Shown here in pieces: positions 46,396 to 58,640 of a DNA stretch of 64,000 bases. A program made the translations under genes and the position numbers. Position 1 is the first letter of the stretch, and every line of letters starts with the position of its first letter. The notes under the pieces are model-generated. The model was given only the letters and a program-made list of their open reading frames with translations. It did not search any database and was not told the DNA's origin. The stretch is from assembly GCA_019359315.1 (NCBI GenBank), contig JAHHHO010000020.1, forward strand, positions 1 to 64,000. The letters are read 5' to 3'. Source of the stretch: Myxacorys californica WJT36-NPBG1 (GTDB lineage: Bacteria > Cyanobacteriota > Cyanobacteriia > Leptolyngbyales > Leptolyngbyaceae).

Positions 46396-47310
46396 TTACC
46401 TACTTACTCTTCGCGCCTCTGCATCAATGCGGCTCCGCAGGGCGAGCGTTGCTGCACCATTGACCGGCAAGCCGTATCTGCTCTGGAACTCCCGCACCGC
46501 CGCTTGAGTTTGAGCATCGTAGAACTGAGTAATGGGCAAATTACTTCGCAGAACAATTCTGAGACTATTTCTCAGATTTCTGACCAAGGTTGCCATAATT
46601 TCCTGAGTGCGCTGATCGGGCCGTCCAGTTGGCGGCAAATTATAGAGAGACTGAATATCTTGAATCGCTCGAACCACAGAAACGTCAGTTAGGGGCTGTT
46701 GCGGATTCACGTCATAGCCAAACCCTAGCAGCAGCGATCGCAGTTGTCCTTCAGTGTAAATTCCCAGCGATGAATTTGAAGAACCACTCGACGGACTGCC
46801 CGACGAACCTGGTTGACCCGGACGAGGTAGCGCATCGTTCAGAATGTCATTGATGCGCTGGCGAGTTTCTAGCGTTGCTGTTCCTGTGGCAGGTAGCTTA
46901 TTTTGCTGCTGAAACAACCGCACCGCCGCCTCAGTCTGCCGTCCATAAAATTGACTTCCTGGAAGCGGAACTTCTAATTTCACCACTCGGTTGAGATCGG
47001 TTTGTAGTTTTTTCATCAGATCTGCCGCTAGATCTTGCGTCGGTGGATTCAGCGTTCCATCCACTGGCAGGCGATATTGCACCTGAAAATCTCGAATCGC
47101 TTGCTGCACGGACGGACTCGAAAAGGGCATCGTTAGCGGGACAGGATAGCCCAGACCATTTAATACAGAAATAAACTGATCTGGCGTATAGTCTTGAGTC
47201 CGCGCTGCCCAAGCAATTTGATGAATCGTGATCGGCTCCGCCAAGCTCCAAAGGAGCGCACCCCCTAGCAGCGCCGTTACAGCATTTGTTCTTCCGTTCC
47301 ACATACTCAC
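46396..47310 (-). CDS. Exported peptidoglycan-binding protein (two PG_binding_1 regions)
   Basis: A membrane-targeting N-terminus ([20 protein letters not shown]) is followed by repeated PG_binding_1-like units: [38 protein letters not shown], then after a Gly/Ser/Pro linker [19 protein letters not shown] and [18 protein letters not shown]. It thus has two pairs, the typical cyanobacterial layout. No catalytic domain. Wall-binding protein of the periplasm. Confidence 0.88.
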
Positions 47311-47398
47311 ACTCTTGTTATTGCTCGAATTGGTCGATGTACTCCCAGATTCATTTTGCGGGATTACTGTAAAAATAGGCGCTTCCTTCTATGCTTTC

Positions 47399-47965
47399 AT
47401 GACTTATTCTCTAAGAATTGCTGATATTCCCGAAAGCGAACGACCCCGCGAGCGACTGATCGCTCAAGGTGCAAAAACTCTCTCTACGGCTGAGCTAATT
47501 GCAATTTTACTGGGAACGGGTCAAGGACCTGGAAAACTTTCGGCAGTAGGGTTGGGGCAATACATTTTGCAAGAATTAAGTCAGCATCAGCGCGATCCGT
47601 TGGGGGTGTTGCGCGATGTCAATATCCAAGAATTAACGAAAGTTCCGGGCGTTGGGCCAGCAAAAGCAACGACAATTTTGGCAGCGATCGAGCTTGGCAA
47701 ACGAGTCTATCAATCGCGTCCACCCGAAAAAACGGTGATTGACGATCCACAAGTTGCCGCTGCTGCTCTCAGTGGTGAATTGATGTGGCAAGCTCAAGAA
47801 CGGTTTGCGGTGCTGTTACTCGATGTGAAAAACAAGCTGATTGGGACGCAGGTAATTACGATCGGTACAGCAACCGAAACTCTGGCACATCCCAGAGAGA
47901 TCTTTCGAGAAATCATTCGCCAAGGTGCAACACGAGCCGTTGTAGAATCCAGAAGCAAACACTAA
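47399..47965 (+). pseudogene. radC: radC interrupted before its HNHPSG motif
   Basis: The N-terminal part is a normal Rad[21 protein letters not shown], the helix-hairpin-helix [15 protein letters not shown], then the JAB/MPN start [49 protein letters not shown]. In intact relatives HNHPSG and the metal ligands follow at once. Here the frame runs into ESRSKH and a TAA at 47963. About 45 C-terminal residues with the whole metal site are missing. A serine recombinase lies right behind, so the gene has been split by insertion; the rest should lie beyond the window. Confidence 0.9.
47936..47950. other. Candidate left attachment junction (attL) in radC
   Basis: RadC-type coding sequence ends within GCCGTTGTAG (47936-47945), and element sequence begins after it. 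The crossover dinucleotide cannot be fixed without the empty site or the right junction. Confidence 0.55.
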
Positions 47966-48125: not shown

Positions 48126-49559
48126 ATGAATCAGCTACCCGATACTGATGGATACTGCCGTGTTTCGACTTTGAAACAAATCACGCACGGGCACGGACTA
48201 GAACGATACAAAGAGGATCTAGAAGATTGTGGCATTCCTCGCGATCGCATCTTCAGCGATGTTGAATCTGGTTCGCGTGACGATCGCGAGGGATATAACA
48301 CCGTCCTAGAGCGCGTGAGGCAAGGAATCACTAAGAAAGTCATAGTCCCCTGCTTCGATCGCTTCACCCGCTCTACGCTGCACTGGGAGCAAGTGATGGA
48401 AGAGTTTGCGCTATATGAAGCTGAACTGCATTTCACTTCTGGCGGTGCGATCGATTTCATCACGCCTGACGGCAGAAAAGCGGCACGCCAACAAGCGGTA
48501 GACGCAGCATGGTGGCGAGAGAAAAACCAATATGCTGCTAAGCAAGGCTGGGCACGCCGCCGCCGCAAAAAGAAAGCGTCTAGTCCACCGTTTGGCTACA
48601 AAGTTGAAAACGATGTGTATGTCGTGAACCGAGATGTTTACCCACCTCAGCCAGACAAGACTTACTTCGACGTTGCTCGCGAAATTATCGAAACCTACCT
48701 TACGGAGGGGAGTATTCGGAACACATGCCATTTGATGATTCAACGCTATGGAGTGGAGCGCTACGGATCTGGGTGGTGGGAGGACTTCCCGCGCGATCGC
48801 ATGAAGTTAGATAAATGGTTAAAAAGTCCAACTGTTCGCGGTCATCTTGCCTACTTTGGGAACCGCGGCAAGCCCCAAGAAATTGCTCAATACAACAACC
48901 ATGAGGCGATCATCGATTCGGACGAAGCACAAAGAATAGATCAGCTGCTCAAAATGAGGGCATCTGGTATCAGTCCATCCTCTGCCGTGCAATACCCCCT
49001 CAGTGGCTTAATTTATTGTCAGTGCGGCGCTAAAACCTCAATTAGCGGCAGAAAGCACCGTAGGCGCTATTACTGCGATGATATCTATGCTCCGGCAGGT
49101 TCGCGAACCTGCACTTTGAAAGGCGGATTGCTATCGGTTGATGCTGAGCAGTTTGCGATCGCGGCAATTTGCCAACGGGCAGCCCAAGAAATCGCCACTC
49201 GAATCGAGCGATCGCAAACACCAACCGTTTCTCAGGACACTCCAGAGTTATTAGCATTACGTCGCAAATTGGCAATGCTAGGCGACGATCCGGATTTTGC
49301 TGCCGCAATCCCTGGCATTCAGCAAAAGATTATAGATTTAGAAGCAAAACAGCGATCCGAATCGACTAGTCAGATCCAACGCAGAGAAGATCTCGTCAAC
49401 GTTGGGTCTGATCCTGAATTCTTTTCAAGTTTGTCGGTTGAAAAACGACGGTTTATCTACACCCAACTTATAAACCGTGTCGTCAAGGCAGGCGACACGG
49501 TTCTATTCGTAGAGTTTCTAGGCGACTTGGGAACTGTCCGATTTGACGATCGCGAGTAA
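48126..49559 (+). CDS. Large serine recombinase, XisF type
   Basis: 477 residues. The resolvase domain starts GYCRVSTLKQ with nucleophile Ser14, and the conserved Arg region is in CFDRFTRSTLHWEQ. A recombinase domain (about 150-280) is followed by a zinc ribbon (Cys298, Cys300, Cys317, Cys329) and a coiled-coil-like C-terminus. The closest relatives I recall are the fdxN-element excisases (XisF) of heterocystous cyanobacteria. It sits at the left end, next to the radC junction, reading into the element. No XisH or XisI genes are recognisable in the window. Confidence 0.92.
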   Translation: MNQLPDTDGYCRVSTLKQITHGHGLERYKEDLEDCGIPRDRIFSDVESGSRDDREGYNTVLERVRQGITKKVIVPCFDRFTRSTLHWEQVMEEFALYEAELHFTSGGAIDFITPDGRKAARQQAVDAAWWREKNQYAAKQGWARRRRKKKASSPPFGYKVENDVYVVNRDVYPPQPDKTYFDVAREIIETYLTEGSIRNTCHLMIQRYGVERYGSGWWEDFPRDRMKLDKWLKSPTVRGHLAYFGNRGKPQEIAQYNNHEAIIDSDEAQRIDQLLKMRASGISPSSAVQYPLSGLIYCQCGAKTSISGRKHRRRYYCDDIYAPAGSRTCTLKGGLLSVDAEQFAIAAICQRAAQEIATRIERSQTPTVSQDTPELLALRRKLAMLGDDPDFAAAIPGIQQKIIDLEAKQRSESTSQIQRREDLVNVGSDPEFFSSLSVEKRRFIYTQLINRVVKAGDTVLFVEFLGDLGTVRFDDRE

Positions 49560-49703
49560 CCGAACCACTTCAGAACTCGGAACCACATTGTTTGACTTTG
49601 CAAGGCGTTCTAGTTCAGCGATCGCGTCTGCCTGCCGTTGCTTCATCTGCTTCCATTGCGCCATGTCTTGCGAGATCGATTGCCAGGTTACAGGCTTACT
49701 CAT
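49518..49703 (-). CDS. Small helical protein at end of replication operon
   Basis: 61 residues (SQDMAQWKQMKQRQADAIAELERLAKSNN), one long helix. It starts in an ATGA overlap with the primase-helicase stop, which argues that it is real and co-translated. Its 3-prime end overlaps the recombinase gene by 42 bases on the opposite strand. It could be a recombination directionality factor or replication accessory, but that is only positional inference. Confidence 0.6.
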   Translation of the reverse strand: MSKPVTWQSISQDMAQWKQMKQRQADAIAELERLAKSNNVVPSSEVVRLLAIVKSDSSQVA

Positions 49704-52700
49704 GCCCGTCGCCTCCCCTCAGCGAAGTTCAGAACTTTTTTCTCATCACAAGAAAGTCTGTGGATCGCTTCAATTCGATCTGTGTCTGTTACTTCACTAA
49801 ACACCGCCGATACAACCTCCTCAATGCAATTTGTTGCAATCCCTTCACGGATAATTTCAACTACATCGCTGACGACTTCTTCGTTGAAGTCGGACTCGGG
49901 TTTCCCTGTTATTGGTCGCGGGATGCCAACATCATCGCTAGTACGAAACCTGAGTCCGACAAAGTGAGCACCCTTGCTATCCCTCTCTTTCTTTGCCTCA
50001 GCATGTCCAAGCTGCCCAACACAAAGGTCACTAAGCAGTCGACTAAAGCGTTGTAAGCTGACTGGCTTTGTCCCTACAGCGTTGCTGTAAGCGATGTAGC
50101 TAGGATAGAGGAGGGTTTCGCTCCCCTCCCAATAAGTACGGGTCGTCCTTGTCGCTCCATCGTCAGGGCTCTCCGAAAATGTGTACTTGACCGCATTTCC
50201 AACATAAGTCTTACTGTCAGCATCAAAAACACAACGACTATCTAGCCACGCAGCCAAAGGATTTGATTCTACGATTGACTCCAATCGCGACGCGTTCAAG
50301 CTCGGAACTGAAACGTCCGTGTTCTTGATTAAATCGAACATTTGCTGATCAGGCATGTCCAACACCCAATTAACGAGTCCTGGAAGAAATTCCGCAAACT
50401 CACCACTTACCCCATTGCGTCCGATGCTAATTAGATCTCGCTGCAACTCTTTCGCGATTTGATTTTCAAATGGAATACTCAACCTTCTGCGGGTAAAACC
50501 AGTTGTATAGTCAGCAGATTGGATCGGCTCGTTGCAGGCGATCAATACCATCGCGTTTGGCATAAAGCCTTCTGATTTCTGCTGAATCCTTTTCTCTTCG
50601 AGGCGCAGAGCATCCTGTCCCGTAAGAGCTTTTAGTATCGATACGCTACCCCCGTAGCGCTCTGAGTCGGTGATGACCACAAGCCGTTTTCCATAAATCC
50701 CAGCCGTCTCAAAACGATTGCCTTCAAGCTGCTTGAGTTCAGTCACGAAGCAATTTCTGAATCCTATCAACGCTTGTGCGAGTCGGATATAAGTAGATTT
50801 TCCCGTCCCCCCTTTACCAACACACTCGATGAATCTTTGCAAATCGGCACGTCCACAAAGAATCGCTTTCAGATAGGCTCTCAGTAATTCGACGATTTTT
50901 TCGTCTCCATTTTGACTTTCGCGCAACCAATCAATAATCGGTTCGCACGTCGCGCCAGGAACGTAACTGTAAGGTAGTTGCCAGGTCAAGCGATGGTCGG
51001 GGGAATGATTTGAGAACTCTCTTGTTGAAAGACGAAGAATTCCGTTTTGGAACGGCAAAAGATCCGAATCCAGTTCCTTGCTCCAATTCCTGCAAGCTAA
51101 AGAGCTAGACATTAAGCTGTAGACAGACTTGACGTAATCAGCGCTGTATTCGCAGTCCAACCCGTTAGAATTCAATTCATCTTTAATCAACTGCTCAACA
51201 AACTCTCTAGATTCAGACGACCATACGCCTTGAGTCTCGGTCCCATAACGATAAAAGCAAGTGCGATCGGGGTTCCACGAAAGAGTTTTCTGATAGAACT
51301 GCGACAAAACGCTGTCAACAACCCCAGCTTTAGGTGTTATTGGTTTTCCAGTTTTGTTGTCAAATTCGATCGGGATATAAGGGCGACTTTCCGACTTCGC
51401 CTCTTGCTGCCTGCGTTCCTGCTCAGCCTCCCTCTCTTGTTGCGCCTGCTTTGCTTGCTGTTTACGGCGATCGTAATCCGCCTGCTCTTTGAATTGCTTC
51501 AACAACCTGTTTAGCGGCTGCCTTCCTAATCCAGGAATCTCGCTAAGTTTGGCAATTAACAACCTTGCTTCAAGGTCATCGATTTTCGTAGCTGCAATCT
51601 CAATCAGGATTTTGGCGATCGCGGTTATATCTTTGCCATCGGTTGGGACGCATCGATCCGCCGCCAATATCAAAATCCTGTTCCAAGGCAAAGATAACGC
51701 TTCTTCTAGTTCAATTGCTAATCCAAGGGATTTCAATTTGGCGATCACGCCTTGCAGTTCTTGGTCACTACCACTAGAGGGAGGCTTGTCGCTTGTAGAT
51801 GACTTTTCACTTGAACCAGCATCACGATCGCGATGCTGCTTGGCTTTGTTGCGATACGCATCTCGCGTCCATTGCGGAAAAGTCCACCCAAACTCATCCT
51901 TTGCCGTGTTAATCAGGCTTCCGATCTTCCACGTCCCCTTGGAGGAACGAACCACCTGAGCGACATTCCATCCGCATTGTCTCGACGGAGAATGGCTCTC
52001 CATCATGCTGATTGCGGCGGCTTCTCCATAGTGATTCTTCAAGCAAGCAGCAATTTTGCGGTAAAGCTGGTAACTATTACCACCCTTAGATCGCGGCGGA
52101 ATGAAGCTCAGAATCTCATTAACAAGGCGAGTAGTAATCTCTTCATCGTGTTCGCTGTCGCCTTTCTCAGCCATTTGCTTGAGCCATGCAGCGCGATCGC
52201 GTTCGATTCGCTGATCTAAATCTGGGTCATTTAGTGCAATAGCTGGATCAACGGTTGTATTGCCATTTTTCTGCTTGTTACGTTGCGTAACCCATTGACT
52301 CCAGCGGTTATCGCTCAAACCGTTCGGGAATGCTCCGGTGGCATCTAAACGTGCCTCAAAATCATTCGGTGAGTAAATCTCGTCAGAAACAAATTCAACC
52401 GTGATTTCTTTTGGTTCAAGAAGCCCGAAGTCGTCTGATTTGCGCCGAGGAATCCCAGCAAGCCTCATCGCCCTAGCCGGATTCACGATGTTGTGATCCG
52501 CAGACTGGAGAATGCAAAGCTTACGAGAGAGCCGCCGCCAATCAGTCTGACTAACCCCTTCACTCAGCCGGAAATAAACGTGAAGAGATTTGCCGCCTGT
52601 AAATACAACAACACAAGGAACCAGACCAGTGTTGGCTTTTAGCCGCTCCAAGGCTTCCCATTGCTCATTCAGTGGCAGATCATCAATCTCGTAGAAAACG

Positions 52701-53119
52701 AGGTCGGTAGTTTTGATGTGAGCGTTTGAGATGCCGCCAGAGGGCTTGTTGGGATAGAAGTAGACCGTTGCTCCTTCGCTTCCTAGCTGTCGGAAGTGAT
52801 CGAAGTTGTATGTCTCTCCTGAGGGCTTCCAAATGGAATTCCCGTCTTTGTCTTCGCCCTTCCATTGGCATTTCTGAACGGAGATTCCGTCAACAGTTAC
52901 TTTTCCCATGAAGACGTAGTTGACAGGCGTTTCCCCATCCTGCTTCATCGCCCACCAGTCAGGCTTGAGAGATGCTTCATGGTCAAAAGACACCTTGATA
53001 CAAATCTCACTGTCGGAAACAAAACCTAAATGCTGTAGTTGAATTTTGCCGACAGTAGCGGGGTCGCTTGATTCGAGAGTTTGAGCGTCATTAAGTGCTT
53101 GAGTTGCGGCCATATTCAT
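49700..53119 (-). CDS. PrimPol - D5/P4-type primase-helicase replication protein
   Basis: 1139 residues. An archaeo-eukaryotic primase-like region spans about 120-235 (DLVFYEIDDLP, FTGGKSLHVYFRL, ARAMRLAGIPR). A PriCT-type helical domain follows (325-410), then a charged coiled coil (550-580). The D5_N region (600-760) precedes a superfamily-3 helicase with Walker A GKGGTGKST (768-776), KRLVVITDSE (Walker B) and LIACNEP (sensor). Such proteins initiate and unwind plasmid or phage-satellite origins. It is coupled to both neighbours by overlapping stops and starts. Confidence 0.88.
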   Translation of the reverse strand: MNMAATQALNDAQTLESSDPATVGKIQLQHLGFVSDSEICIKVSFDHEASLKPDWWAMKQDGETPVNYVFMGKVTVDGISVQKCQWKGEDKDGNSIWKPSGETYNFDHFRQLGSEGATVYFYPNKPSGGISNAHIKTTDLVFYEIDDLPLNEQWEALERLKANTGLVPCVVVFTGGKSLHVYFRLSEGVSQTDWRRLSRKLCILQSADHNIVNPARAMRLAGIPRRKSDDFGLLEPKEITVEFVSDEIYSPNDFEARLDATGAFPNGLSDNRWSQWVTQRNKQKNGNTTVDPAIALNDPDLDQRIERDRAAWLKQMAEKGDSEHDEEITTRLVNEILSFIPPRSKGGNSYQLYRKIAACLKNHYGEAAAISMMESHSPSRQCGWNVAQVVRSSKGTWKIGSLINTAKDEFGWTFPQWTRDAYRNKAKQHRDRDAGSSEKSSTSDKPPSSGSDQELQGVIAKLKSLGLAIELEEALSLPWNRILILAADRCVPTDGKDITAIAKILIEIAATKIDDLEARLLIAKLSEIPGLGRQPLNRLLKQFKEQADYDRRKQQAKQAQQEREAEQERRQQEAKSESRPYIPIEFDNKTGKPITPKAGVVDSVLSQFYQKTLSWNPDRTCFYRYGTETQGVWSSESREFVEQLIKDELNSNGLDCEYSADYVKSVYSLMSSSLACRNWSKELDSDLLPFQNGILRLSTREFSNHSPDHRLTWQLPYSYVPGATCEPIIDWLRESQNGDEKIVELLRAYLKAILCGRADLQRFIECVGKGGTGKSTYIRLAQALIGFRNCFVTELKQLEGNRFETAGIYGKRLVVITDSERYGGSVSILKALTGQDALRLEEKRIQQKSEGFMPNAMVLIACNEPIQSADYTTGFTRRRLSIPFENQIAKELQRDLISIGRNGVSGEFAEFLPGLVNWVLDMPDQQMFDLIKNTDVSVPSLNASRLESIVESNPLAAWLDSRCVFDADSKTYVGNAVKYTFSESPDDGATRTTRTYWEGSETLLYPSYIAYSNAVGTKPVSLQRFSRLLSDLCVGQLGHAEAKKERDSKGAHFVGLRFRTSDDVGIPRPITGKPESDFNEEVVSDVVEIIREGIATNCIEEVVSAVFSEVTDTDRIEAIHRLSCDEKKVLNFAEGRRRA

Positions 53120-55743: not shown

Positions 55744-55965
55744 TTACTGCGGAGCCTCTTCATTCCGCTTCACGCTATCAGAAGGGCGATCGCCATCAGA
55801 TTTCGCTTTCTTTTTCGAGCGACGCTTATCAGTCTTTTGTTCTTCAGATTCTTGTTGACGAGGGGCAGATTCTAAAGATTGAGCTTCGAGCCTAGCGTAA
55901 TAGATATCAATTTCTCTGTCGAAGTCTTCCCAGAAAGCGTCATTCATATCCCTGAACCGTCCCAT
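55744..55965 (-). CDS. Small charged protein, end of the DWLQV operon
   Basis: 73 residues: MNDAFWEDFDREIDIYYARLEAQ then a Lys/Glu/Ser-rich disordered tail. Alternative start at the second Met (55947). It overlaps the preceding 37-codon frame by 22 bases. Not recognised. Confidence 0.5.
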   Translation of the reverse strand: MGRFRDMNDAFWEDFDREIDIYYARLEAQSLESAPRQQESEEQKTDKRRSKKKAKSDGDRPSDSVKRNEEAPQ

Positions 55966-56057
55966 GTTTCTAGGTTGTCAAAGTCTGGATGGATGGCGCG
56001 GGCAGATGCATCTTCCATTCGGTGTTTTTCTTGTTGCTCATTTTGATGCTTGGGCAT
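55944..56057 (-). CDS. Degenerate member of the DWLQV small-protein family
   Basis: 37 residues starting MPKHQNEQQEKHRMEDASARA. The start and the MEDASARA segment align with MSKKQNDEPPK...MKDVTARA of the family, but DWLQV is missing. It may be a decayed fifth copy. Confidence 0.35.
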   Translation of the reverse strand: MPKHQNEQQEKHRMEDASARAIHPDFDNLETWDGSGI

Positions 56058-56089
56058 CTTAGACTGTAGCGATCTCTTTACTGACTCCC

Positions 56090-56260
56090 CTAATGATCAT
56101 CCTTATCATTGCCACTAGATTCGCGCTCCTTCTCCTTGGCTTGAGCGGCTTCGGCTTCTAATCTTTTACGCTCGTCTCTGCAAGCATCTTTCAGCACTTG
56201 TAGCCAGTCTGTAGGCTCAGCTTCGCTCTCTTTAGGCTTGCTGTTTTTCTTGTTGCTCAT
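56090..56260 (-). CDS. DWLQV family small protein, copy 4
   Basis: 56 residues: MSNKKNSKPKESEAEPTDWLQVLKDA, then a charged helix rich in Lys, Arg, Glu and Ala, ending DKDDH. It shares the PxDWLQV(L/M)xD core with three upstream genes. The gene is too small for common callers; conservation among copies supports it. Confidence 0.65.
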   Translation of the reverse strand: MSNKKNSKPKESEAEPTDWLQVLKDACRDERKRLEAEAAQAKEKERESSGNDKDDH

Positions 56261-56319
56261 TTTTTCTATTGATGATTGCTTACTTTATTAGTGAGAGATT
56301 TTGAACCGTAGCGATCGCT

Positions 56320-56472
56320 TTACTTGCTTCCCTGGTGATCACCTTCATCATTAGATGTCCGCTCTTTTCCAGCTTGAGCCTCTAGTTTTTTCTGATGACG
56401 AATGGCAACATCTTCCAAAACTTGCAGCCAATCTCTAGATGGATCGTGTTTATCGCTTTGTCTCTTAGTCAT
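56320..56472 (-). CDS. DWLQV family small protein, copy 3
   Basis: 50 residues: MTKRQSDKHDPSRDWLQVLE, then a charged helix (RHQKKLEAQAGKERTS). It starts in an ATGA overlap with the preceding copy. The start region TTAGTCATGG-GATT is shared with copy 1 at the DNA level. Confidence 0.68.
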   Translation of the reverse strand: MTKRQSDKHDPSRDWLQVLEDVAIRHQKKLEAQAGKERTSNDEGDHQGSK

Positions 56473-56690
56473 GGGGATTCAACCTCTTCTGCCACATTGG
56501 TTGGATTGGATGCGCGATCGATCTGCTGATCGTATCTACGCTGCCATTCTTCGGAAGTTGGTTCTCTGCCTGTCCGTCGCTTGAATGTTTCGGCATCTTG
56601 TTCACCTTTGACAAAACTGGCGCGAGCAGTCACATCTTTCATAACTTGCAGCCAGTCCTTGGGCGGTTCGTCGTTTTGCTTCTTGCTCAT
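56469..56690 (-). CDS. DWLQV family small protein, copy 2
   Basis: 73 residues: MSKKQNDEPPKDWLQVMKDV, then TARASFVKGEQDAETFKRRTGREPTSEEWQRRYDQQ, a longer helical C-terminus than the other copies. It overlaps copy 3. Confidence 0.7.
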   Translation of the reverse strand: MSKKQNDEPPKDWLQVMKDVTARASFVKGEQDAETFKRRTGREPTSEEWQRRYDQQIDRASNPTNVAEEVESP

Positions 56691-56748
56691 TTTTCTCGTT
56701 GCTCATTTTTAATTTGATGGCGGGAGATTTTGAACCATAGCGATCGCT

Positions 56749-56904
56749 TTACTTATTCCTTTGGCGATCATCCTCGTCATCACTAGAGGAGCGCTTTTCC
56801 TTCTCCGATTGCTCTCTTAGTTTTTCGCGAGCAATTATGTCTTCCATAACTTGTAACCAGTCTTTAGGCGGCTCTTGTTTTTCGCTCTGTTGCTTCTTAG
56901 TCAT
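56749..56904 (-). CDS. DWLQV family small protein, copy 1
   Basis: 51 residues: MTKKQQSEKQEPPKDWLQVM then EDIIAREKLREQSEKEKRSS and a very acidic end. It starts inside the stop of the XRE gene (ATGA), so it is translated with the regulator. No known family. Confidence 0.72.
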   Translation of the reverse strand: MTKKQQSEKQEPPKDWLQVMEDIIAREKLREQSEKEKRSSSDDEDDRQRNK

Positions 56905-57134
56905 GGCGATTTAGCCTCAATTCTTTGCGCCGCAGGAATCCATTCAATGATTTCTCCTGGCTGGATTTCGTAGGCTGTACAAATCTTGTCCAACACATCA
57001 GCATTGGGAATTCTGTCGGAGTTGTTCACCAGGTCGTAAGCAGTACTTTGGGCAACGCCTACGTCCTTCCGAAAGCGATACACGCTGATACCGCGTTTCT
57101 CTATAAATGCCTTGATTGTGTTCTTCACTGTCAT
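56901..57134 (-). CDS. XRE-family helix-turn-helix regulator
   Basis: 77 residues with the lambda-repressor fold: AFIEKRGISVYRFRKDVGVAQSTAYDLVNN, then RIPNADVLDKICTAYEIQPGEIIEWI. First gene of a minus-strand operon that continues through the DWLQV genes. It is divergent from parM; the repeats between them are likely its operator, the partition site, or both. Confidence 0.88.
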   Translation of the reverse strand: MTVKNTIKAFIEKRGISVYRFRKDVGVAQSTAYDLVNNSDRIPNADVLDKICTAYEIQPGEIIEWIPAAQRIEAKSP

Positions 57135-57161
57135 GCCCCCAATTTACATTTGTTTTGCATG

Positions 57162-57250
57162 AGTCGATATTACTCATTTATGAGTAGTACGACAAGTCGA
57201 TATTACTTATCTTTCGTTGCATTGTTTATCAGAAATCAGTATTACTCAAC
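57162..57250. repeat. Iterated repeat between XRE and parM (candidate parC/operator)
   Basis: AGTCGATATTACTCAT (57162-57177) and AGTCGATATTACTTAT (57195-57210) are direct copies 33 bases apart. ATCAGTATTACTCAAC (57235-57250) is a third, weaker copy. An inverted ATGAGTAGTAC (57180-57190) adds a dyad to the first. A cluster like this upstream of a ParM gene is typical of a plasmid centromere. Confidence 0.65.
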
Positions 57251-57395: not shown

Positions 57396-58424
57396 ATGAA
57401 CATTGCAGCCGAAAAAGCATCTCCTGCCATTAGCCAGTCATGCCGATTCATGCCAATTGGGGCAGATATCGGCAACGGGGCATTGAAACTCGTTTCGTCC
57501 ACTGGTGAAACTCGCCTAGAGTCTTACGTTTACTATCTTCCAAGCCGTTCCACAGATGCCCCAAAAGGCTATGTAGAGTACCTCTCAGGTACTCGCGAAG
57601 ACTTAGCGAGTAAGCAATGGATGACCGGAGTGAACGCCTATTACTCCAGTCCTTCTGCAATTCGTCGTGTGACGGACTCCAAAGCGGGCAAAGTCGAATT
57701 AGGGTTGCAGTTGCTTCTAGGGGCACTGTCCGAGCAGCATGCTCGCGATCACTGGGAGCTAGGCGTCGTGGTTAGCGTTCACGATGGGAAAGCACTGGGC
57801 AATGGAATCAAGCAGGCGCTAGAAGGAATTCACCTGGTCAGAATGCAGGGCAGGCAATCTCAAGTGACCATCAAAGTTTTGCAAGTTCTAGAGGAAGGCA
57901 CGGGTGCGATCGTTCACTACAAGAACAAGGTCGATACCACTAATGCCATTCTGTATGACCTTGGCAACGGAACGCTGATCGTTTCCAGTTTCAACGGCTT
58001 GCAGTTAACCAGCCGCAACTACTCGCAGAATGGCGGCGTTGAAAAGTTGATTGATGCGATCGCGACGAACGAGCAGGTCAGAACCAAGTTACTGAAGCAA
58101 GGTCAACCTCACCTCATCCGCCGTGGCATTGAAGATCGGACGTTTCGCTATGGCACTCAGTATGCGGATTGGTCGTTTGCAGAGGCTTACAAAGCGGAGC
58201 TACCCCGATGGGTGAACGAAGTCTTAGCCCCAATGGTTCGGCCCACGGAAGACCGTAAAGAGGCGGCGACAGCATTGATTGCCGTCGGAGGAGGCGCTTG
58301 CTTGCCGGGGATTGCCACGCTTCTGTCGAAGCGCGATATCAGTGTCTTGGATGAGCCACAGTGGGCTAACGCTCGCGGATTGTATGCCGTCGCCATTCGG
58401 AAAACGGCACAGGTGGAGGGTTGA
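57396..58424 (+). CDS. parM: ParM/StbA-like actin, plasmid segregation
   Basis: 342 residues with the actin-fold ATPase motifs: phosphate-1 IGADIGNGALK (21-31), phosphate-2 LYDLGNGTLIVSS and adenosine AVGGGACLPGI. Filaments of such proteins push plasmid copies apart. An internal start at Met19 would begin directly at the first motif, so the N-terminal 18 residues are uncertain. The adjacent small gene is the probable ParR adaptor. Confidence 0.85.
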   Translation: MNIAAEKASPAISQSCRFMPIGADIGNGALKLVSSTGETRLESYVYYLPSRSTDAPKGYVEYLSGTREDLASKQWMTGVNAYYSSPSAIRRVTDSKAGKVELGLQLLLGALSEQHARDHWELGVVVSVHDGKALGNGIKQALEGIHLVRMQGRQSQVTIKVLQVLEEGTGAIVHYKNKVDTTNAILYDLGNGTLIVSSFNGLQLTSRNYSQNGGVEKLIDAIATNEQVRTKLLKQGQPHLIRRGIEDRTFRYGTQYADWSFAEAYKAELPRWVNEVLAPMVRPTEDRKEAATALIAVGGGACLPGIATLLSKRDISVLDEPQWANARGLYAVAIRKTAQVEG

Positions 58425-58427
58425 TCG

Positions 58428-58640
58428 ATGCGCGTCACAATTGCAAAAAACCATCACGAGAAAGTGACTCAATTAGCCTCTGAGCTTGGCAGTGCCGACG
58501 ATCCGAAAGTTGCAGTTAATTTCATCATCAATCTGTGGGCGCAAGGGCAATTAGGAGTACCAAAACCCCGGACAAGTCAACAGCCAACGCTATCGGTACA
58601 AGAGGACGAATTCGCCGCGATCGCGGATTGGTCGGAATAG
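58428..58640 (+). CDS. Small ParR-like partner of ParM
   Basis: 70 residues: MRVTIAKNHHEKVTQLASELG, then DPKVAVNFIINLWAQGQLG and an acidic C-terminus ending DEFAAIADWSE. The short strand plus two helices would fit a ribbon-helix-helix ParR. It starts three bases after the ParM stop. Assignment relies on position and shape. Confidence 0.6.
   Translation: MRVTIAKNHHEKVTQLASELGSADDPKVAVNFIINLWAQGQLGVPKPRTSQQPTLSVQEDEFAAIADWSE

Follow-up and report, generated by a model that had tools for sequence, protein, structure and literature searches.

Genes of the array and the mobile element

On the minus strand of the window, i.e., of the whole stretch of 64,000 nucleotides that was analyzed, an XRE regulator gene is followed by four small genes in tandem, which encode proteins of 51 aa (g1, 56749..56904), 73 aa (g2, 56469..56690), 50 aa (g3, 56320..56472) and 56 aa (g4, 56090..56260). 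These frames are present where an earlier note on this DNA had placed them, and they are mutually homologous, with the pairs listed at E-values from 3e-11 to 7e-6 in an all-against-all BLASTP comparison of 261 small ORFs of the surrounding element. Apart from the antisense of FG-GAP repeats, no other tandem family of small ORFs was found on the element in this comparison. A 659-aa FG-GAP/RTX repeat protein with a cadherin-like domain is encoded on the element as well (L013 9887-11866).

The residues invariant in all four proteins are the initial methionine, the motif D-W-L-Q-V, an aspartate three residues after the valine and one aspartate in the tail. The longer motif PPKDWLQV, which had been described as shared by all copies, is exact in g1 and g2 only, whereas g3 has PSR and g4 EPT. 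Likewise, the overlap by ATGA that had been assigned to the genes in general applies to XRE/g1 and g2/g3, whereas g1/g2 and g3/g4 are separated by a conserved spacer (minus strand, 56691..56753 and 56261..56324, respectively). Downstream of g4, a decayed third spacer and the relic of a fifth copy occupy 55944..56089 (minus strand), with a homologous start ATGAGCAACAAGAAAAACA at 56041. The array is followed by g6 (55744..55965, minus strand), a coding-like gene for a charged protein of 73 aa, which lies outside the DWLQV profile; it was considered as a diverged sixth copy and ruled out by the protein profile. The default minimum gene length of Prodigal is 90 bases, and the small genes with their 50-73 codons do not fall below it as had been proposed.

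The regulator gene (56901..57134, minus strand) encodes 77 aa with an HTH_26 domain (Pfam, E 1.4e-14), and its stop codon overlaps the start of g1. Three operator-like palindromes of the type ATGAGTAATATCGACTCAT are located in the XRE/ParM-like promoter region (57159-57177, 57192-57210 and 57231-57249, minus strand), and the XRE gene at the head of the operon, as given in the earlier note, was confirmed. The palindromes are imperfect; four matches to this type occur in the window, compared to 0.17 expected. All three are conserved in the congener G001, two of them being more symmetric there, and they are likely to represent XRE operators.

On the opposite strand, the partition locus that had been reported next to the array was recovered. 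It comprises a ParM/ALP-like actin gene (57396..58424, plus strand; ALP_N E 6.9e-8, ParM model 30.8 bits and thus below the cut-off) and a 70-aa gene in the parR position (58428..58640, plus strand). The locus therefore has the components of a ParM-type partition system, namely an actin-like ATPase that is preceded by repeats and followed by a small partner gene. Homologs of the ParM-like gene with 54-63% identity are found in related elements, and related ParM-like genes are also present at two further loci of the host (C58 with 55% and C62 with 38% identity). Homologs of the 70-aa gene are 31-36% identical, occur at several loci and follow the ParM-like gene there; the fold of the encoded protein was not recognized by Pfam.

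The array is part of an integrated chromosomal element of about 30.7 kb in radC. The left half of radC (47228..47937, plus strand) ends directly before the element, which extends from position 47938 of the window to C124:78648 (L013 14648), where the right half of radC begins; this contig (C124, 88 kb) is chromosomal. When compared with the uninterrupted radC of G001, the left and right halves have 2 bp (GC) in common, which fits the large serine recombinase encoded at 48126..49559 (plus strand; Resolvase E 2.6e-19, Recombinase E 5.3e-7), and the integration site is empty in the congener. The plasmid location assumed by the earlier note was rejected, since radC is interrupted by the element. 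In the literature searched, no paper on radC-integrating serine recombinase elements of cyanobacteria was found.

The element further encodes a D5_N/DUF5906 primase-helicase (49700..53119, minus strand), and the neighbours of the array are the XRE gene, the other copies, g6, an RHH-like gene and the primase region. A small Cys-containing protein of 84 aa is encoded at C124:66189-66443 (L013 2189-2443). A homolog of it lies directly upstream of the ParM-like gene in the related element of genome G036, and a similar-looking protein is located near an XRE gene in G033 (L060).

Coding capacity and growth of the array

The coding capacity of g1-g4 and purifying selection on their shared core are evident from codon usage and from the substitutions between the copies. 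The mean codon score per gene ranges from 0.078 to 0.138, and none of 217 spurious ORFs reaches the score of any of the four (99th percentile 0.036). Between the copies, dN in the shared core is 0.19-0.60, whereas dS is about 1.4 or higher and partly saturated; the exact dN/dS ratios should not be relied on, because the pairs are not independent and near-saturated dS values are imprecise. In an ungapped block of 16 codons, fewer amino acid changes were observed than would result if these base changes were distributed at random, with P 0.005-0.02 for five pairs out of six and 0.09 for g3/g4. Hence, both analyses proposed in the earlier note, dN/dS among the copies and a comparison of codon statistics with non-coding sequence, speak for genuine genes.

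These data also bear on the idea of a non-functional, decaying DNA repeat, in which the frames are open merely by chance. One copy is already a relic, as would be expected in this case, but a core conserved despite near-saturated dS, coding-like codon use and a chance of only 0.013-0.039 per copy that a frame stays open at 35-45% divergence make it the least likely of the explanations considered here.

The array most likely grew in place by tandem duplication directly behind the XRE gene, judging from its junctions. The XRE/g1 and g2/g3 junctions are identical in 21 of 24 bases (GAGGCTAAATCGCCATGACTAAGA and GAGGTTGAATCCCCATGACTAAGA), which was reached by none of 300 shuffles and indicates a duplicated unit whose beginning lay within the 3′ end of the XRE gene. 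With such a unit start, the array has most likely arisen at its present location. The start type (A-type), the upstream junction and the acidic tail are common to g1 and g3. The other start type is found in g2 and g4, of which g4 combines it with a tail and spacer of the g1/g3 type, while the C-terminal part of g2 is longer and unrelated. This mixing of starts, tails and spacer shows that units recombined, and the tails of the copies differ through both recombination and new sequence. Taken together, homology, junctions and selection argue for a true tandem duplication with retained coding function, as had been supposed.

The reported duplication of the spacers was confirmed as well, with 30 of 31 bases identical before the intact genes g2 and g4. 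The conserved 30-mers (56724-56753 and 56295-56324) have a single mismatch to each other and include a HIP1 site (GCGATCGC); no further site was found in the 6-Mb genome with up to three mismatches. The spacer before the relic, in contrast, differs at 7 of 30 bases as counted from the sequence. As the spacers are nearly identical, far more so than the near-saturated synonymous sites in the neighbouring genes, their conservation suggests either a functional signal tied to the intact genes or gene conversion. Neither a structured RNA in the spacers (z 0.1 to 0.6) nor, by a consensus scan, an internal promoter on the array strand was detected.

With regard to the degenerate fifth copy, the DNA relic was verified by a perfect match of 22 bases to the start of g4, which was not reached in 300 shuffles. 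The 37-aa frame (55944-56057) that had been taken for this copy is, however, not the homologous frame, and its match to the protein profile is no better than that of shuffled sequences.

Distribution and age of the array

Apart from the array itself, no homologs of the DWLQV proteins were found in 42 genomes of the order, in a class sample of 390 genomes, in 72,556 plasmids and 50,697 phages (tblastn) or in the viral contigs of IMG/VR, in collections that may omit records very near to the window's own genome and with searches that could miss diverged relatives lacking the motif. The plasmid family of such proteins envisaged by the earlier note was thus not recovered in these searches. The motif DWLQV[ML][EK]D was matched once in 84,980 species, inside a longer frame of Gimesia, and no match of g1-g4 above noise was obtained with Pfam, PHROGs, PADLOC or NCBIfam.

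Several weak candidates were discarded. At class level, the matches either fall within frames of 250-999 aa or run antisense to other genes; the best of them, obtained in a single genome out of 390 (G155, N-terminus of a frame with 693 aa, E 1e-4), does not rise above chance. A PDB profile match to the E1 component of pyruvate dehydrogenase (E 0.15) reflects a similar N-capped helix with DWLQ and is not significant, and the RiPP precursor HaaA (E 0.096) was rejected, as no radical-SAM enzyme was recognized among the element proteins scanned. The array is real, selected and an orphan.

The array is missing from the nearest relatives of both the element and the XRE/ParM region. It therefore represents an accessory cassette carried by the mobile element in radC and is dispensable for partition, as far as can be judged from these comparisons. 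A sister element in radC of G036 (C10, about 28.9-64.4 kb) with a 60% identical recombinase and a 63% identical ParM-like gene contains an RHH-like gene and a 52-aa gene in the slot of the array. In G001, the XRE gene is retained (L059 587-820, G001:C66; 95% identity, dS 0.31, dN 0.02) without the array. The homology stops precisely at the ATGA marking the start of g1, and the ParM-like gene next to the XRE gene is truncated, so the array has probably been lost in G001. The copies are far more divergent than this XRE pair, so that the array should predate the divergence of these two XRE genes, provided that it was not acquired from elsewhere. Homologs of the XRE gene on plasmids of Nostoc and other cyanobacteria are followed by unrelated small genes or by none.

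Possible functions and comparison with known systems

The structure of g1 and g2 was modelled with AlphaFold2. The predictions are of low confidence (pTM 0.29-0.35) with an input of four sequences only, and they comprise a single helix from W16 onward for g1 (core pLDDT 79-87, pTM 0.35) and two helices for g2. In the simplest reading of these models, each protein would begin with a basic, disordered head, continue with an N-capped helix for docking and end in a charged tail.

The best mechanism, to which we assign a probability of roughly one in three, is that of small helical proteins repressed by the XRE regulator, which dock on one partner via the helix start DWLQV and act as antirepressors or inhibitors. 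The regulator would bind the three palindromes of the shared promoter and thereby repress the operon that it heads, small genes included; the divergent ParM-like gene may be repressed as well. Once repression is lifted, several similar small proteins would be produced together. The helix starting at D-W-L-Q-V would dock on one common protein partner and inhibit or redirect it, while the differing tails may tune affinity or reach, and the presence of several copies would raise dosage and supply some variants. As a partner, a regulatory protein of the element itself or of a co-resident element would be the most likely kind, corresponding to an antirepressor or inter-element inhibitor, followed by a host defence protein. 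In its most specific form, the proposal reads that the tandem copies on this radC element form a new family of small helical inhibitors controlled by an XRE autorepressor, which use their shared DWLQV docking helix to disarm a protein of regulation or defence, with the copies providing dosage and variant tails; this form as a whole is rather unlikely.

Roles in anti-defence, partition control or as antitoxins were ranked behind the antirepressor or inhibitor cassette. An anti-defence cassette, in which the small proteins inhibit a host defence such as CRISPR-Cas and the XRE is an Aca-like autorepressor, appears unlikely. A mobile element with orphan small proteins next to an HTH regulator corresponds to the guilt-by-association pattern by which anti-CRISPRs are searched for (PMC11065993), and Cas1 genes are present at several places in the host. 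On the other hand, no PADLOC, PHROGs or Pfam match was obtained, selection on the core is purifying rather than diversifying, and related XRE genes stand beside unrelated downstream genes, so that the XRE gene by itself is no specific marker. Modulation of the ParM-like system or the primase, either of the element itself or of co-resident related elements, seems less likely still: the array is flanked by the partition promoter and the replication genes, and the ParM-like loci on C58 and C62 are possible targets or competitors, but sister elements with 55-63% identical ParM-like genes do without an array.

Antitoxins, which the earlier note had listed among the possible roles, would be tandem copies directed against an orphan or distant toxin, and this role is highly improbable. 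Small charged proteins in an XRE-headed operon on a mobile element would suit such a role, and the element also carries a Fic-domain gene at a distance of about 20 kb from the array (L013 13098-14246, PADLOC SoFic model, E 2.8e-127). Against this stands that no toxin gene adjoins the array or is paired with any copy, that no toxin family, which a type II toxin-antitoxin system would include, was recognized among the scanned neighbours of the array, and that the small proteins match no toxin-antitoxin family.

Many orphan small genes reside on mobile elements, and their reality is hard to show. In this case, paralogs within one array reveal that the genes are coding and selected even though no homolog is available from outside, and they point to DWLQV as a conserved contact motif that can be used as a bait. 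The identity of the partner would tell whether tandem amplification serves antirepression, inter-element competition or anti-defence.

Among known systems, Aca-acr loci share with this locus the orphan small proteins and a candidate HTH autorepressor on a mobile element. They differ in that g1-g4 are not homologous to known members, having no match to a defence or phage family in PADLOC, PHROGs, NCBIfam or Pfam, and represent tandem paralogs of a single family. SinR/SinI likewise combines an XRE regulator with a small helical protein, and a [DE]-W helix start is common to both. However, SinI had no match at E-values up to 10, g1 and SinI gave no BLASTP alignment and no Pfam match was obtained, and an interaction domain of the SinR type, to which SinI could bind, would not fit into the 77 aa of this XRE, so that the SinI reading was rejected. 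The XRE regulators of cyanobacterial plasmids (e.g., pCENA543a, NZ_CP023280) are mostly 43-55% identical and, on pCENA543a, divergent from parM, but the DWLQV array is missing there and the downstream small genes are unrelated or absent.

The antirepressor or inhibitor cassette fits best because of the analogy with the TF-smORF modules, some with an XRE regulator, that plasmid-like phages carry near par and in which the small protein inactivates the phage cI repressor (PMC10432266). Among the scanned proteins of the element, no cI-like repressor was recognized. The smORF of the published modules is single, counter-oriented and activated by the TF (PMC10432266), whereas the array consists of four tandem copies that are co-oriented with the XRE gene, overlap its stop codon and sit in its operon, which speaks against this reading. 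Still, the TF-smORF modules have a common logic rather than a common sequence (PMC10432266), and the likeness to the array is of this kind: a regulator gene adjoins orphan genes of about 50 codons near a par locus, on an integrated mobile element with partition and primase genes.
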